A DNA stretch of 43,505 nucleotides, from NCBI GenBank assembly GCA_001303185.1, contig LJNP01000003.1, positions 1 through 43,505 of the forward strand. Reading direction: 5' to 3'. The notes under the pieces were generated by a model. That model made no database searches and was not told the origin of the DNA. It saw only the letters and a list, made by a program, of their open reading frames with translations. Shown piece after piece: positions 17,868 to 26,014 of this stretch (positions are counted from its first letter, which is position 1; each line of letters starts with the position of its first letter). Position numbers and translations under genes: made by a program. The stretch comes from Parcubacteria bacterium SG8_24 (lineage in GTDB: Bacteria; Patescibacteriota; Patescibacteriia; SG8-24).

Positions 17868-19374
<1,507 letters not shown>

Positions 19375-19495
19375 CTAGGGAGTAAATCTAGCCGGAGACT
19401 CCGGTCATCGGCACACGTCATCATCCGCAAGGATGAGGCTCCCAGGTCGGTCATGGCCTCGCGCCATGGAGTCATGGGTAATACTGCAGCGGCTC

Positions 19496-19510
19496 TTGTC
19501 TCGTTCGCAT
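19496..19510 (+). repeat. Right arm of 16S-flanking processing stem
   Basis: TTGTCTCGTTCGCAT pairs with 17793-17807. Confidence 0.8.
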
Positions 19511-19515
19511 CGCCA

Positions 19516-19550
19516 AAGGAAAAACCGCCCGACAGGGCGGTTTTGGGTTA
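19516..19550. terminator. Terminator after 16S (also usable on the minus strand)
   Basis: AAAAACCGCCCgacaGGGCGGTTTTGG. Confidence 0.8.
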
Positions 19551-19556
19551 CCGAGG

Positions 19557-20000
19557 TCAGAAACGGACGGACAGTACGGATCCGTCCTCGGCATGACGCC
19601 TGACATAGGCCTGGAGGCCCGACTGCCGCAACAGGTCGGCTACGGCGCGGGTGACCCGACGGTCGGGCGGCTTGCGTCCGTGGCGAAGATAGATCGTCGC
19701 ACGGCGACCGCCTTCGGTCGCCCGACACCAGGCGAGGACGAGCGCGCCTCCCCACAGCAGTGTCGCGACGTCCCTCATGTTCCTGATCCTCGAACGGCAA
19801 CGGGCCTCGAAGGCGGGCCAGCGCTTGCGGTCGCGGCACGGCCGGCCGAGCTTCCCGTCCGGCTCCTCGCCGGCAACGTAGGCCATGAAATCGAACATCG
19901 GGAAAAGCTGGCCTTTCTCGGCGAGCTCCACGAGAATCTTCATCGTCGCGAGCGTGTAATCCCGCTTAGCGGGATCGGAATCAGCCTGTCCGGACATCAC
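19557..20000 (-). CDS. Hypothetical protein
   Basis: 147-aa ORF with AGGAGG SD upstream and terminator downstream. Confidence 0.6.
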   Translation of the reverse strand: MMSGQADSDPAKRDYTLATMKILVELAEKGQLFPMFDFMAYVAGEEPDGKLGRPCRDRKRWPAFEARCRSRIRNMRDVATLLWGGALVLAWCRATEGGRRATIYLRHGRKPPDRRVTRAVADLLRQSGLQAYVRRHAEDGSVLSVRF

Positions 20001-20067
20001 CTGAACACCTCCTGTGGGTTCGGTTCATCTAAAGGACTGCCTGATATCTTGACTGATGAGGGACTTG

Positions 20068-20097
20068 GCGTCAAAAAAACGCCCGAAAATGGGCGTC
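20068..20097 (-). terminator. Rho-independent terminator
   Basis: Minus strand GACGCCCATTTTCGGGCGTTTTTTTGACG. Confidence 0.75.
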
Positions 20098-20098
20098 T

Positions 20099-20806
20099 TC
20101 AGGTCGCGGCCGGCTCCCGTCGCACGAAGGGGTACCGCACCATCAGAATATGCTCCACCGCAGTGACGCTGGGGCCGATGATCTGACCCTCGAAGTCGCC
20201 GACCGCCGCCGCCGACAGCCTCCGCCCGTCGTCACTGGGGACGATTACCGGGACCTGCACGACGGTCGGACCGTCGTAACGACGGATGAACGAGGTACCC
20301 AGCGCCGCCAGACCGTCCGGTACCGAATCGGCGTATTGCGTGGCGAACGACAGCAGGTGTGTGATGCGGGCCGGTTTCAGCCCCCTCGATTCCATGAACC
20401 GCGAGAACTGCGGCCAATCCAGATCCACCTTGATGCGGAAAAGCTGCATCCGCAGATAACGCGGTGAGTCGTCCTGCAGACGGCCGAACAGCTCCCGGAA
20501 ATCCGGCGCCACCTCGATGATACCCGCGGCCTGCGCCAGACCTTCCCAATCCGGATGACTGACCTTTTCCACCACGTAATGCCTCGGGCGTTCGAAGATT
20601 CCCTCCCAGGGCACGTCCGGACAGCCGACATCCCGCTCCGACGGGACGAACTGCTCCAGGCAGGAGGTGAGCCTCCCGTTGGCGATCGCCTGGACGACAT
20701 GAAAGTTCTCCAGGAGCCGCTTCAACTGTTCCTCCGTGGCGATACCGACCAGCTGATTGAATCTGGCATCCAGCCGGTCGATGAGCGACCAGTCCACATT
20801 ACTCAT
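20099..20806 (-). CDS. Hypothetical protein
   Basis: Start at MSNVDWSLIDRL; the longer ORF upstream overlaps a promoter. Confidence 0.65.
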   Translation of the reverse strand: MSNVDWSLIDRLDARFNQLVGIATEEQLKRLLENFHVVQAIANGRLTSCLEQFVPSERDVGCPDVPWEGIFERPRHYVVEKVSHPDWEGLAQAAGIIEVAPDFRELFGRLQDDSPRYLRMQLFRIKVDLDWPQFSRFMESRGLKPARITHLLSFATQYADSVPDGLAALGTSFIRRYDGPTVVQVPVIVPSDDGRRLSAAAVGDFEGQIIGPSVTAVEHILMVRYPFVRREPAAT

Positions 20807-20864
20807 GCTTGACCTCCGCTGAAAGGACCGAATCAGTCTCCATTTACTCAATGAACGTCCGGAC

Positions 20865-20893
20865 ACAATAACATCTGCTTTGAAGCCTGTCAA
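20865..20893 (-). promoter_or_regulatory. Promoter of the 20099-20806 gene
   Basis: Minus strand TTGACA, 17 nt, TATTGT. Confidence 0.65.
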
Positions 20894-20953
20894 CTCGCGA
20901 TATTTACCTTGATTTAGCCAAAAACATGATATATCCTACCCCGGTACCAAGGG

Positions 20954-20982
20954 TTGTCAAAATCCCTAAGCGGTGCTATATT
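20954..20982 (+). promoter_or_regulatory. tRNA-Ile promoter
   Basis: TTGTCA, 17 nt, TATATT. Confidence 0.65.
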
Positions 20983-21014
20983 CTTCATTGTCCGTCTGCC
21001 GGACCCGGAAGCTC

Positions 21015-21091
21015 GGGCGTGTAGCTCAGTCGGTTAGAGCGTCACACTGATAATGTGAAGGTCGGTGGTTCGAATCCACCCACGCCCACCA
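21015..21091 (+). tRNA. tRNA-Ile (GAT), CCA encoded
   Basis: GGGCGTGTAGCTCAGTCGGTTAGAGC...CTGATAA...GGTTCGAATCCACCCACGCCCACCA; full cloverleaf. Confidence 0.95.
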
Positions 21092-21138
21092 CCAAGAAAT
21101 CGAACGGCCGGTCCCGTAACCGGCCGGCTGACCGATTT

Positions 21139-21630
21139 ATGATCCTGACCACTACAGACATCGTCATCCGCCTGGTGATCATCACCGTTTTGGCTGCGCT
21201 CATCGGTATGGAGCGGGAATATCACCGACGGCCCGCCGGTATCCGTACTAACGTCATGGTCGGCCTGGGCGCTACGCTCATGACTATGGCCTCCATCCAG
21301 ACGCCATCACTATGGGCTGACGTGACGACCGTCGACCCGGGTCGGATCGCGGCCCAGATCGTCAGCGGCATCGGTTTCATCGGTGCCGGCATCATCCTCC
21401 AACGAGGCAGCAAAAGGGTGATCGGTCTGACTACCGCAGCCACGCTATGGGTAGTGGCCGGACTCGGTATAGCCGTCGGTATGGGACTATACACCGAAGC
21501 GGTGGCCGCCACCATCCTGGTATTCATCACCTTCATCCTGCTGACCCGCGTGGTGGTGGCCGTCAGGTCCTATGCCAAGAGGAATCCGCCGAAATTCGAC
21601 AGCGACTTCGCGGACCTCATCGAAGAGTGA
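21139..21630 (+). CDS. MgtC/SapB family membrane protein
   Basis: LAALIGMEREYHRRPAGIRTNVMVGLGATLMTMAS...IAAQIVSGIGFIGAGIILQRGSKRVIGLTTAATLWVVAGLGIAVGMG. Confidence 0.93.
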   Translation: MILTTTDIVIRLVIITVLAALIGMEREYHRRPAGIRTNVMVGLGATLMTMASIQTPSLWADVTTVDPGRIAAQIVSGIGFIGAGIILQRGSKRVIGLTTAATLWVVAGLGIAVGMGLYTEAVAATILVFITFILLTRVVVAVRSYAKRNPPKFDSDFADLIEE

Positions 21631-21648
21631 AGCCGTTTCAGTATTGAC

Positions 21649-21681
21649 GGCCCGAGGTAGCTCAGTGGTAGAGCAGTGGAC
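21649..21681 (+). pseudogene. 5' half of a second tRNA-Phe-like gene
   Basis: 21652-21681 is identical over 30 nt to 21744-21773 of the intact tRNA-Phe; ends inside the anticodon loop. Confidence 0.75.
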
Positions 21682-21718
21682 AGCACCCTGAGGGGTGCGG
21701 TCGTATCATATCCGCTCT

Positions 21719-21738
21719 AAACATTTCCCGGATCGTGG
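21719..21738 (+). repeat. Left arm of 20-bp inverted repeat flanking tRNA-Phe
   Basis: AAACATTTCCCGGATCGTGG, one mismatch to the reverse complement of 21815-21834. Confidence 0.85.
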
Positions 21739-21741
21739 TCG

Positions 21742-21817
21742 TGCCGAGGTAGCTCAGTGGTAGAGCAGTGGACTGAAAATCCACGTGTCGCCAGTTCAAT
21801 CCTGGCCCTCGGCACCA
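21742..21817 (+). tRNA. tRNA-Phe (GAA), CCA encoded
   Basis: TGCCGAGGTAGCTCAGTGGTAGAGCAGTGGACTGAAAATCCACGTGTCGCCAGTTCAATCCTGGCCCTCGGCACCA; full cloverleaf. Confidence 0.95.
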
Positions 21818-21834
21818 CGATCCGGTAAATGTTT
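21815..21834 (+). repeat. Right arm of inverted repeat, includes the tRNA-Phe CCA end
   Basis: CCACGATCCGGTAAATGTTT. Confidence 0.85.
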
Positions 21835-21845
21835 TCCGCTGGGGC

Positions 21846-21882
21846 CGCGTGTCTTCAGTCCAATCCTGGCCCTCACCGCCAT
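21846..21882 (+). pseudogene. 3' half of the second tRNA-Phe-like gene
   Basis: CGCGTGTCTTCAGTCCAATCCTGGCCCTCACCGCCA aligns to CACGTGTCGCCAGTTCAATCCTGGCCCTCGGCACCA. Confidence 0.75.
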
Positions 21883-21921
21883 TCCTGAAGCGGTTTTACT
21901 TCCGACATAACATGACAATTT

Positions 21922-21997
21922 CGGGGTGTGGCCCAGCGGCTAGGGCGCCTGCTTTGGGAGCAGGAGATCGCGAGTTCGAGTCTCGCCGCCCCGACCA
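21922..21997 (+). tRNA. tRNA-Pro (TGG), CCA encoded
   Basis: CGGGGTGTGGCCCAGCGGCTAGGGCGCCTGCTTTGGGAGCAGG...GTTCGAGTCTCGCCGCCCCGACCA. Confidence 0.93.
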
Positions 21998-22008
21998 ACA
22001 AAAAATGC

Positions 22009-22082
22009 GCGGGCGTAGTTCAATGGTAGAACACTAGCCTTCCAAGCTAGCCACGTGGGTTCGATTCCCATCGCCCGCTCCA
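22009..22082 (+). tRNA. tRNA-Gly (TCC), CCA encoded
   Basis: GCGGGCGTAGTTCAATGGTAGAACACTAGCCTTCCAAGCTAGCCACGTGGGTTCGATTCCCATCGCCCGCTCCA. Confidence 0.95.
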
Positions 22083-22139
22083 GCTCGAGGGACGCGTACG
22101 GAGTAGGTGTCCCGCGAGGTGGAATAACCCTGCCTTGAT

Positions 22140-22571
22140 ATGAATGATGATAGGCGACCGCAAGTAGGTGTGGCCGCCCTGATCGTCAGGGACGGCAAGA
22201 TACTTCTCGGCAAGCGACGCGGTTCCCACGGTGCCGGTAGTTGGTGCCTGCCTGGAGGCCACCTGGAGTGGAAGGAGGAACCTGCGGCCTGCGTGCAGCG
22301 CGAAGTCAAGGAAGAGACCGGTCTCGACGTGATCTCCAGCCGGCCGTTCGCCTTCACCAATGACGTCTTCGCGGCGGAAGAGAAACATTACGTGACCCTT
22401 TTCCTGCTTACCGAGGTCGCGCCAGGCGACGCCGAGCTGCTGGAGCCGGAAAAATGCGAATCTTGGGGCTGGTTTCCGGTCGACGACCTGCCTTCACCGC
22501 TTTTCCTGCCGATCCGTAACCTGATTGCCTCAGGTTTCGATCTCAGGTCATTCATCTTGGATCTCGCGTGA
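22140..22571 (+). CDS. NUDIX hydrolase
   Basis: Nudix box GGHLEWKEEPAACVQREVKEETGL (GX5EX7REUXEEXGU). Confidence 0.95.
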   Translation: MNDDRRPQVGVAALIVRDGKILLGKRRGSHGAGSWCLPGGHLEWKEEPAACVQREVKEETGLDVISSRPFAFTNDVFAAEEKHYVTLFLLTEVAPGDAELLEPEKCESWGWFPVDDLPSPLFLPIRNLIASGFDLRSFILDLA

Positions 22572-22649
22572 ACCGTATCGTGGCCGTAGATCCAGCCGGA
22601 CTTTGACATCGTTATCACGGACGTATCCGATCATCTTGAGGAGGTTAGA

Positions 22650-22961
22650 GTGGTTTCAATGCGTACCATGCCGGCCCGCATCGACGGGATCTGGGAGGCG
22701 TATGAGCTCTGGCGTCCCGATCCGTCCCGCAAGTCCTCCAAAAGGAGACATGTGAGATTCTTCACCCGCAGCGGCGATGCCGAGGAATACGTCAGACCTT
22801 TCGGACTCCGGGGGAGGATCCGGTTCCATCAGGCGGTCTTCTTCGCCGACGGTAGGATCTACTTGCTCCGTTCGGGTGACCCGATCGAGCTCGGCGGGCC
22901 CTCTCCGGACTTCCAAGAATCCGGGAGCCCGACGGACGGTCGGTGCGGAGACAGCAAATGA
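22650..22961 (+). CDS. Hypothetical protein (GTG start, or ATG at 22659)
   Basis: GAGGAGG SD upstream; ATGA overlap with the next gene. Confidence 0.55.
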   Translation: MVSMRTMPARIDGIWEAYELWRPDPSRKSSKRRHVRFFTRSGDAEEYVRPFGLRGRIRFHQAVFFADGRIYLLRSGDPIELGGPSPDFQESGSPTDGRCGDSK

Positions 22962-23239
22962 TCCGGTTCGCGCCTGGACAGATTGACGTCTGGCGGGTGC
23001 TCCGTAGTACGGCCGAAGACGGAGTCCGTCAGGTCGTGATGGGTTATTTCTTCCAGGTCCGCAATGCCTGTAATCTGGCCCTCCGGATCAATCAGGCCGG
23101 GAACGGGCCGGCGGTAGTCAACGGCTGCCGTGCCCTCCTCTTGCCCGGCGGACTGATCCTGCCCGCTGCCGATACGGATTCCGTCAGGCCGCAGCGCTGC
23201 CTGGACGACCCTTCCGTAAGGGCTCTGCCCGATCGGTGA
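22958..23239 (+). CDS. Hypothetical protein
   Basis: Start MIRFAPG overlaps the previous stop as ATGA; terminator downstream. Confidence 0.55.
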   Translation: MIRFAPGQIDVWRVLRSTAEDGVRQVVMGYFFQVRNACNLALRINQAGNGPAVVNGCRALLLPGGLILPAADTDSVRPQRCLDDPSVRALPDR

Positions 23240-23269
23240 ACTGCCCCGCCCCGCGGGGTTTTTTCTTTC
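23237..23269 (+). terminator. Rho-independent terminator
   Basis: GCCCCGccccGCGGGGTTTTTTCTTT. Confidence 0.75.
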
Positions 23270-23301
23270 GGTTAGGTCCGGTCTTGCGGTATCATGACGA
23301 G

Positions 23302-24702
23302 ATGAAGCTGACTGATATGAGACTGGTCCCGAAACCGTCACTGGCGACGTTCTGCCTGGGCACGGCCCTGGTCATCCTGCTTACCATGACCGCCTTTGTC
23401 GTCTACGGAAGGGCGGCCGACCTGGCTTCGGAAACCTCAATCCCGCCCCATCTGCCCGCCATGAGATCGCTGTTGACGGTACTGTTCATCGGTCTGACGG
23501 CGGCTGCCGCCCTCCTGATCGCCTGGCATCACCAACTGTTATCGGGGGCGAATCGGAGACTTGTGGCGCTGACCATCTCCGCCGGACTGCTGCTGATGCT
23601 GGTCGGTATCTCTTTCGCGCCGATCGGATCGGCCGACGTCTACTGGTACACGCTGTCAGGGCGCTCCTTGGTGCTCCATGGTGATAACCCTTATGCCGGT
23701 TCCCCGTTCTCACACGCCGACGACATCTTCATCGGCTATGTCGATCGGTGGGCCGACCATTCGACCCCCTATGGACCGCTGCTGACCGCCCTCACGGCGC
23801 TGCCGATACTCCTGTCCGGTAATCCCGCCATGCAGGTAAGGTTGATGAGAGCCCTGATGGTATTGGGATACGTCCTGGCCGGCCTACTGATCTTCCGTGA
23901 GCTGCGGACGTCAGGGAAGCGACGAGCCGGGACCTTCCTGGCCCTCTGGTTCATCAATCCTTTCGCCGTATTCGAGGTCGCCAATGCCGGACACAATGAA
24001 GGGCTGCTGGCCCTGCCCCTGGCCCTATTGGTCATCGGCCTCATGAGACGCGATCCAGTGCGTCCGTCGGTCGCCCTGACCGCAGCGGCCCTCATGAAAT
24101 GGTGGCCGGCCATATTAGCGCCGCTGCTCATGCGTTTCCGGCGGGCCGGCAAGAGGCGCTGGGTGATCGCTGTCACAGCCTCCATCCTACTGATGATCGC
24201 TGCGGCCGCGCCGTTCGGATCTGCCCTGATACAGGCCGTAGGCCTTCGGCATCATGTCGCCTACGATTATCCGTTCTATTTCGGGCCGGTCCTGTTCATC
24301 CTCTGGGTGATTGCCCTATCTTTTACCGCCCCGGCTGCCGCCCTCATCGCCGCCAAGATGACCGGCGGCCTGCTGTTGCTGGGTCTGCTGATCTTCGTCA
24401 TGTCGGGACTCCACCGTCGTCGATATGAAGCTGCTCCGGCTGCCCTGCTCATCTCACTGTCTTTCCTGATGATCTCGCCGTGGGTACAGCCGTGGTACGG
24501 CATCGCGCTGCTGCCTTTCTTCGCCTCCCTGAAGACCCGGACGATGTTCGTCTCGTTCATCGTGGCCGGCCTGGCCGGTTTCACCGCCTATTCTGCCTCT
24601 TCGGTCGCCGTTACCCTTTGTGCTCTGACCGCTTACGCGATCATCCGAATCTTCCTGACCGCGACGTCTCTGGCGAGTAACCCGAAACCGCGACCCCACT
24701 GA
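23302..24702 (+). CDS. GT-C-type integral membrane glycosyltransferase-like protein (GT87/DUF2029- or mannosyltransferase-like)
   Basis: About 10+ TM helices; SADVYWYTLSGRSLVLHGDNPYAGSPFSHADD loop after the first TMs, typical of polyprenyl-P-sugar transferases. Confidence 0.7.
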   Translation: MKLTDMRLVPKPSLATFCLGTALVILLTMTAFVVYGRAADLASETSIPPHLPAMRSLLTVLFIGLTAAAALLIAWHHQLLSGANRRLVALTISAGLLLMLVGISFAPIGSADVYWYTLSGRSLVLHGDNPYAGSPFSHADDIFIGYVDRWADHSTPYGPLLTALTALPILLSGNPAMQVRLMRALMVLGYVLAGLLIFRELRTSGKRRAGTFLALWFINPFAVFEVANAGHNEGLLALPLALLVIGLMRRDPVRPSVALTAAALMKWWPAILAPLLMRFRRAGKRRWVIAVTASILLMIAAAAPFGSALIQAVGLRHHVAYDYPFYFGPVLFILWVIALSFTAPAAALIAAKMTGGLLLLGLLIFVMSGLHRRRYEAAPAALLISLSFLMISPWVQPWYGIALLPFFASLKTRTMFVSFIVAGLAGFTAYSASSVAVTLCALTAYAIIRIFLTATSLASNPKPRPH

Positions 24703-24721
24703 GACCGGACCGGATTGAAAA

Positions 24722-24755
24722 AGGAGTGACTCGATCATGTCACTCCTGTTCTTCG
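24722..24755 (-). terminator. Terminator overlapping the 3' end of the AAA+ gene
   Basis: Minus strand AGGAGTGACatgatcgaGTCACTCCTTTTTC. Confidence 0.75.
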
Positions 24756-26014
24756 TCGTCCGGCGACCCGGCGCTGTGGACGGCCTGGGCTGGTCTCTGG
24801 TAGACGTTCGCCCGGCCGGCTTCCCGCGGTTCAGGATGCGGCTTCCGGTAAATGGCCGGTTCCGAACCCTCCATGGTAAAGAGAACTTCGTCGCCGTGCT
24901 CCAGCGCACCGCACTCGATGCTGGTGGACAGCGGCAAGGTGACCCGCTTATGGACCACGTCCCTGAGCGGACGCAACCCATAGAGTCGGTTCGATCCTTC
25001 CTGGAGGAGAAAGGCCTTGAACTCCTCGCTGAAGTGCAGGAGCATCGGCGGGGCAGTCGTCCCGCGTCGTCCGGAGACCTTCTCCTGCTCGAGACTCAAC
25101 ATCAGTTCCAGGACCTTCAGGCGACTGGAATAATCCAGCGTCCGGAAGATGATGATCTCGCTACGCAGGCGTCCGACCAGCTCCGGAGCGAACCTCTCCT
25201 CGATCAGCTTGACCGTATCCCCGTAGATCCGCTGATCCAACAGGTCGGCGTTCTGGCTGATGTCGGACTCGGGCGTTCCGAAGCCCATCTGGTGCGACTT
25301 GCCGGCGAGCAGCTCCTGCTGACGCCGGCCTCCGACGTTGCAGGTGAGGATCACCACGCTGTTGCGGAAATCGGTGATTTCCCCGTTAGCCATGGTAAGC
25401 TCGCCGTCGTCGATGATGTGCAGCAGCAGGTTCCACAGGTCGTTATGCGCCTTCTCTACCTCGTCAAAGAGGATGACCGATAGGTAGGGGCGGTACTCCT
25501 GGTAGAAATTCGCCAGCACATCCTCCAGCTTCTTCGGATCGCGATCCCGGAACCGTTTCTCGAGGAAGGGGCGGGCCTTGACCCAGAAGTGCGGTTCGTC
25601 GATCTTCATCTGCGAGAGCATCCCCGGCTTGTCCGACTGGACATAGCCGGGCGGCGATCCGATCAGCTCGGAGACCCGGTGGCTCTCCTTGTACTTACCG
25701 CACTGGATCCTGATGAGTGGGGCATGGGGCTGGTCGGCGACCAGGCAACGTGCCAGCTCTTCAGCCATCAGCGTCTTGCCGACTCCTGTGGGCCCGGAGA
25801 AGATGAACGAACCGATGGGTCGGCGTCCGTCGCCGAGTCCGGAGTAATAGATGGAGAAACGGCGGGCCACGTGCTCAGCCGCCCTCTCCTGACCGATGAC
25901 GCGGCTCGTGAGATGGTCGAAGATCGCCTGGGTCTTCGGGCCGAATCTCTCGATCTCCACCCGCTCGGTGAAGGCGCGACTGTCACCATGCTTAAGGGTG
26001 CTGTCGTTGCCCAT
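24740..26014 (-). CDS. Single-ring HSP100/Clp AAA+ ATPase (ClpB/ClpC D2-like)
   Basis: GPTGVGKTLMAEELARCL, RIQCGKYKESHRVSELIGSPPGYVQSDKPGMLSQ, SVILFDEVEKAHNDLWNLLLHIIDDGELTMANGEITDFRNSVVILTCN, F-APELVGRL; no D1 or N domain. Start set at MGNDST. Confidence 0.85.
   Translation of the reverse strand: MGNDSTLKHGDSRAFTERVEIERFGPKTQAIFDHLTSRVIGQERAAEHVARRFSIYYSGLGDGRRPIGSFIFSGPTGVGKTLMAEELARCLVADQPHAPLIRIQCGKYKESHRVSELIGSPPGYVQSDKPGMLSQMKIDEPHFWVKARPFLEKRFRDRDPKKLEDVLANFYQEYRPYLSVILFDEVEKAHNDLWNLLLHIIDDGELTMANGEITDFRNSVVILTCNVGGRRQQELLAGKSHQMGFGTPESDISQNADLLDQRIYGDTVKLIEERFAPELVGRLRSEIIIFRTLDYSSRLKVLELMLSLEQEKVSGRRGTTAPPMLLHFSEEFKAFLLQEGSNRLYGLRPLRDVVHKRVTLPLSTSIECGALEHGDEVLFTMEGSEPAIYRKPHPEPREAGRANVYQRPAQAVHSAGSPDDEEQE

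Follow-up and report, generated by a model that had tools for sequence, protein, structure and literature searches.

We find that the sole full-length tRNA-Phe gene detected in this genome (about 1.1 Mb, 45 tRNAs) lies inside the anticodon loop of a second, broken tRNA-Phe, and we consider it fairly probable (roughly 0.6) that the nest stems from a cassette that targets tRNA genes, breaking the tRNA in a loop and carrying a replacement. In the window, by which we mean the whole 43,505-nt stretch of DNA analysed, the upstream neighbours are a tRNA-Ile and mgtC (PF02308), with the outer tRNA starting about 20 nt past the end of mgtC, and the downstream neighbours are a tRNA-Pro, a tRNA-Gly and a NUDIX gene. 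The features of the locus, in window positions, are as follows.

21629..21641, + strand: outer extension arm, 5′ strand, GAAGCCGTTTCAG; pairs 13/13 (including G-U) with 21885..21897
21651..21681, + strand: outer tRNA-Phe 5′ part, positions 1–31; also in the relatives G007 and G009
21682..21844, + strand: whole insert (163 bp) in the outer anticodon loop, with an outer half on either side
21683..21698, + strand: GC-rich hairpin at the 5′ junction, GCACCC-TGAG-GGGTGC
21711..21716, + strand: direct repeat TCCGCT, left copy, read from the sequence
21719..21739, + strand: inverted repeat around the inner tRNA, left arm, 21 nt, 95% complementary to 21814..21834
21743..21817, + strand: intact tRNA-Phe(GAA) (ARAGORN; Rfam RF00005, 73 bits)
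21814..21834, + strand: inverted repeat around the inner tRNA, right arm
21835..21840, + strand: direct repeat TCCGCT, right copy, read from the sequence
21845..21881, + strand: outer tRNA-Phe 3′ part, positions 39–75, 81% identical over 37 nt to the inner gene
21885..21897, + strand: outer extension arm, 3′ strand, 13 bp, enclosing the outer tRNA

The inner tRNA-Phe has a canonical fold and a GAA anticodon by both ARAGORN and Rfam, and when the genome was searched with the locus the only other DNA match was a tRNA-Asn, with no second tRNA-Phe. A repeat finder aligned 21652–21681 with 21744–21773, which are positions 2–31 of the inner gene, at 30/30 identity. An earlier note on this DNA had described an intact tRNA-Phe between the 5′ and 3′ halves of another, the 5′ half identical to it over 30 nt and followed by the hairpin; the three programs agree with this layout, the hairpin lies where it was placed, and the 3′ half is present, starting one nucleotide before the 21846–21882 given there. 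The 21-nt inverted repeat and the 13-bp outer extension arm are features that the note lacked. The outer tRNA is broken in its anticodon loop, positions 32–38 being absent from both halves, and the insert is fully occupied by the hairpin, the arms and the intact tRNA and is too short for any gene. The hairpin occurs at the 5′ junction only, and the insert ends are unlike the CCYGCC..GGCRGG ends of the younger nests described below. A search of the genome for a second exact copy of the hairpin found none and returned one other place with two mismatches, so that we rejected a high-copy repeat as its source. The 6-bp TCCGCT repeats flanking the inner arms are a possible, weak candidate for a target-site duplication; the repeat is imperfect in G007 and G009 and absent from the other nests that we read.

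The same nest is found in G007 and G009, two Patescibacteria of a sister genus (records Candidatus Uhrbacteria RIFOXYC2_FULL_47_19, L128, and Parcubacteria CG1_02_58_44, L040). Since three assemblies agree, the assembly error that the earlier note had raised as a danger is excluded, and these relatives carry the nested layout rather than the plain tRNA with randomly decayed fragments that it had also named. Flanking sequence can no longer be aligned between the window and the two genomes, with the layout retained. Their outer tRNA is better preserved (acceptor stem 7/7, D stem 4/4, anticodon stem 4/5, T stem 5/5 or 4/5), and its 3′ part matches the inner gene at 37/37 in G007 and at 97% over positions 39–72 in G009. 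In each genome the 5′ half is an exact match to the inner copy even though the genera differ from one another (GTGGAC versus GAGGAC), which suggests conversion between the inner and outer copies. Seven further genera of this family (G001, G002, G003, G004, G005, G006 and G008) have a single tRNA-Phe, which lies 43–224 nt after the end of an mgtC homologue. Because of this arrangement in the sibling genera, we read the outer tRNA-Phe as occupying the ancestral place and the inner copy with its arms as the insert.

The conserved layout could instead reflect selection for a composite RNA such as the earlier note had proposed, with the outer halves forming a tRNA-like scaffold that guides the processing or stability of one precursor. 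Such folding is possible: the minimum free energy of the 281-nt locus is -130 kcal/mol, where shuffled sequences average -93 (z = -7.0), and the duplicated tRNA is expected to account for part of this. Persistence of the layout in two genera with unalignable flanks also speaks for a selected RNA, as do double changes that keep pairs between the window and G007/G009 in the hairpin (GCACGC-TAGC-GCGTGC in the relatives, a C-G to G-C change), the inner arm (G-C/A-U) and the outer anticodon stem (U-G/A-U), and outer extension arms that pair 13/13 in the window and 14/14 in the relatives despite their different sequences. However, only two independent lineages are compared and palindrome-directed repair could also yield paired changes, so that these changes argue weakly for RNA function. 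The canonical pairs remaining in the window's outer tRNA are 4/7 in the acceptor stem, 4/4 in the D stem, 4/5 in the anticodon stem with one wobble and 4/5 in the T stem; three of seven acceptor pairs and one T-stem pair are gone, and among the outer stems, for which compensatory change had been suggested as a check, the anticodon stem shows such a paired change. One inner-arm pair is broken in G007 and G009, and the nest is absent from the seven sibling genera. Because the outer tRNA is decaying in the window, we regard a selected composite RNA as a minor and improbable alternative, and it is not needed to explain the locus.

An origin from a self-splicing group I intron, once in the outer anticodon loop and later replaced by a tRNA copy, was prompted by the family itself: in two sibling genera the anticodon loop of tRNA-Phe holds an RF00028 intron (L033 974–1200 in G003; L032 1571–1821, minus strand, in G006), and group I introns at this position have been reviewed (PMC3984707). 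They share the loop and the gene with the window nest, but they splice out and leave the outer tRNA functional, whereas the outer tRNA of the window has lost its anticodon and the inner gene has taken over. The Rfam model that matches G003 and G006 gave no match in window positions 18000–26000 at E up to 5, so a group I intron in the window was rejected. Moreover, the G003 and G006 introns split U33|G34 on our reading of the P1 pairing, while the window lacks 32–38, and nests are also seen in D- and T-loops, and with many tRNAs that have no intron. An intron relic is therefore very improbable. In G006 a GIY-YIG ORF lies downstream of the intron-bearing tRNA-Phe.

We scanned 500 nt on each side of 151 tRNA-Phe loci collected from the class, and of their other tRNAs, for pieces of the same tRNA (422 tRNA loci in total); this survey was seeded on intact tRNAs and loci without a surviving tRNA would escape it. 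Fragments were found at 37 of the 151 tRNA-Phe loci, with further ones at tRNA-Ile, tRNA-Pro and tRNA-Gly, and across all tRNAs 127/136 were in the sense orientation and 9 antisense. Upstream pieces were 5′ parts in 62/69 cases and downstream pieces 3′ parts in 53/58 (Fisher p = 8e-22, a value that is overstated since loci of the same family are not independent, although the matches span many families), and all 21 loci with pieces on both sides were nested. This order contradicts an origin as plain random pseudogene fragments. Chance is excluded, since dinucleotide-shuffled flanks of 373 tRNA loci contained 0 tRNA fragments and two other genomes share the layout. Break points cluster in loops (at about 12|13, 20|21, 31–39 and 54–56), and GC-rich hairpins are frequent in the gaps of the broken tRNAs. 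The cleanest nests without an ORF are a tRNA-Ile (L167) and a tRNA-Arg (L295), both split inside the anticodon, with inverted ends CCYGCCYGCC ... GGCRGGCRGG around the inner tRNA. The window has the layout of an ORF-less nest, with positions 1–31, an intact tRNA and positions 39–75 in succession and the outer break in a loop. A plasmid search returned ordinary tRNA matches only. Nested tRNA loci are apparently a wider phenomenon, seemingly undescribed, of which the window is a real instance; we found no description of nested tRNA cassettes in the open-access literature, a scope that makes the absence a weak one.

The nests might also have arisen as duplication relics with no mobile element, through template switching or unequal recombination at the palindromic tRNA arms that re-copied the tRNA inside itself, with palindrome-prone repair supplying the arms and hairpins. 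The window insert, which has neither an ORF nor clear cassette ends, would suit such an origin, as would the large number of ORF-less nests and the identity of the 5′ halves to the inner copy, which suggests conversion between copies. The strict order of 5′ parts upstream and 3′ parts downstream, with nesting in 21/21 two-sided loci, points the other way, as do the recurrence of breaks in loops, the GC-rich ends shared by nests such as L167 and L295, the frequent GIY-YIG ORF at the same junctions and, in the window, the lack of resemblance between the inner and outer flanks. We therefore hold a duplication relic to be unlikely. Unequal recombination or an intron, both offered in the earlier note, fit more poorly than insertion, there being no group I intron in the window and the insertion rule being class-wide.

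Several other arrangements were seen around tRNA genes. The last 20 nt or so of many tRNAs, often with a terminator, are duplicated about 130–230 nt downstream, both in the window's own genome (L131, Asn; L136, Lys; L145, Met; L151, Asp; L159, Ser) and in relatives (L003, L004, L013, L018, L206, L234 and L270). Between tRNA and duplicate lies a conserved structured segment that often opens with the reverse complement of the T-arm, ends in the window's genome with GCCCGAGTCGGAGCGAGGGG directly 5′ of the tRNA 3′ copy, and has no match in Rfam; it looks like a second T-loop element, possibly RNA-based. In the class, tRNA-Phe genes are often enclosed by long inverted repeats, which lengthen the acceptor stem by up to about 19 bp (L008, L012, L034, L035). 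At L021 (902–1000) a ghost tRNA-Phe is split at 12|13 and 33|34 by 22-nt palindromes, with tRNA bases neither lost nor duplicated; the genome concerned, G082, holds 9 near copies of one palindrome/hairpin against 0 control matches. At L034 (1020–1150, G079) an upstream tRNA-Phe copy has palindromes in its D-loop and T-loop with D and anticodon stems intact.

Some nests contain a nuclease gene. Across 84,980 species, a scan for non-U33 tRNA 5′ halves that have another one after them recovered window-like nests as well as 5′ pieces with a hairpin in place of the anticodon arm in Verrucomicrobia, Bacteroidetes, Peregrinibacteria and others. Eight tRNA-Met loci of Verrucomicrobia show a ghost of positions 1–26 with a hairpin, then an intact tRNA, a GIY-YIG ORF and a ghost 3′ part that begins at position 42, 45 or 52; in several the identical hairpin stands on both sides. 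The cultured isolate Rhodohalobacter halophilus JZ3C29 has a nest at tRNA-Gly with a GIY-YIG-like ORF; in this locus (L050) the intact tRNA occupies 966–1038 and the ORF 1069–1371. Within the window's class an ORF lies inside nests at tRNA-Phe (L021) and tRNA-Ile (L251), and in its own family ORF-bearing nests were found at L324, L327 and L338, including a two-level nest at the tRNA-Val of G002 (L324) and nests at tRNA-Asp and tRNA-Ser of G008 with the ORF inside. All 7 tested ORFs, some lying in nests and others next to tRNA genes, matched PF01541. GIY-YIG homologues occur in 325/381 genomes of the class, and of the 30 such loci that scored best against a query which was tRNA-linked to begin with, 27 include a tRNA in their 3.2 kb, in many cases with a ghost beyond the ORF; about 12% of 3.2-kb stretches would be expected to hold a tRNA (from 45 tRNAs in 1.1 Mb). 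Neither a GIY-YIG ORF nor a remnant of one lies in the window nest, and its genome has a single GIY-YIG homologue, on another contig with no tRNA nearby. We therefore class the window as an ORF-less nest that shares the anatomy of GIY-YIG tRNA cassettes, rather than as a GIY-YIG element. In view of the missing nuclease gene, its descent from a GIY-YIG form is something we infer from this likeness in anatomy.

Tandem tRNA 5′ pieces, with a GC hairpin instead of the anticodon arm, also lie directly upstream of intact tRNAs in L041–L119 (for example L057, L059, L066, L067, L073 and L102), from Bacteroidetes, Verrucomicrobia, Ignavibacteriae and others. The nested tRNA-Ile of L251 (G134) is a mosaic of two alleles: the intact tRNA is near-identical to that of G043, and the 3′ ghost is closer to the tRNA-Ile of G080 than to its own intact tRNA. 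This hints at exchange between lineages.

Integrative elements that attach at tRNA genes insert into the gene, restore it with a piece that they carry and leave a fragment behind; they carry an integrase and usually restore the 3′ end alone. In contrast, the window insert carries a whole tRNA and breaks the anticodon loop, and has neither an integrase gene nor a restored tRNA 3′ end. To our knowledge mobile hairpin elements carry no tRNA and no nuclease gene. Their likeness to the nests is in GC-rich hairpins that spread in a genome, some of them in or near structural RNA genes, an example of such mobile palindromic or double-hairpin elements being those of sponge mitochondrial DNA (PMC2800124). 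Archaea have split, permuted and intron-bearing tRNAs (PMC4090602, PMC3978253), and in these the halves are separated at or near the anticodon, as in the window, but are joined by a splicing endonuclease; the window halves have an intact gene between them and, even combined, are still without an anticodon.

A cutting step is plausible because SegB, a GIY-YIG enzyme of phage T6, cuts within tRNA genes, triggers recombination there and drives amplification of the locus (PMC13096335). Its reported site motif RAWTSGAAC (PMC13096335) corresponds, as we read it, to the T-loop GTTCSAWTY in reverse complement. The window nest differs from the SegB system in having no nuclease gene. GIY-YIG homing endonuclease genes resemble the ORF-bearing nests in that small enzyme genes adjoin tRNAs; in the nests, by contrast, the cassette occupies a loop of the tRNA itself, an intact copy lying within and the halves outside, an arrangement of which we found no report. 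In synthetic home-and-rescue drives an essential gene is broken by a nuclease, and a working copy comes with the insert (PMC8996256). The nests share this logic of a break plus a working copy, which is workable because the engineered drives show it to be so; unlike the nests, those drives are engineered and target protein-coding genes, and their rescue copy is recoded.

We therefore favour a tRNA-targeting cassette as the source of the window nest. A small cassette, here about 163 bp long, would have entered the anticodon loop of an ancestral tRNA-Phe between mgtC and tRNA-Pro, splitting that gene and bringing a complete tRNA-Phe within inverted-repeat arms. The inner copy would now do the gene's work, and the outer halves would be what is left of the original. 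The nest would belong to the GIY-YIG cassette family, its nuclease gene lost or never present. The GIY-YIG enzyme would cut an unsplit tRNA gene in a loop, and repair would copy the cassette in, using the tRNA halves as homology arms. The carried tRNA would then act as a rescue copy, making the insert survivable and hard to lose. What is observed directly is the nest and its presence in two genera, the site with one tRNA in seven genera, the class-wide nesting rule and GIY-YIG nests of the same anatomy; we count against a cassette the missing GIY-YIG ORF in the window, ends unlike those of younger nests and a hairpin at the 5′ junction only.

More tentatively, and at somewhat less than even odds, several phyla may harbour natural home-and-rescue elements of about 150–450 bp, either with a GIY-YIG gene or as ORF-less miniatures, that place a tRNA replacement in a loop break and make the host dependent on it, with repeated rounds giving Russian-doll tRNA loci. 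If this is true, selfish DNA enters some of the most constrained genes of tiny genomes, and the host survives through the gene that the insert carries. Such elements would be a natural counterpart to engineered rescue drives and one source of the many odd tRNA fragments near bacterial tRNA genes. For annotation, this is a warning that halves of a tRNA close to a tRNA gene may be scars of an insertion and not split tRNAs.
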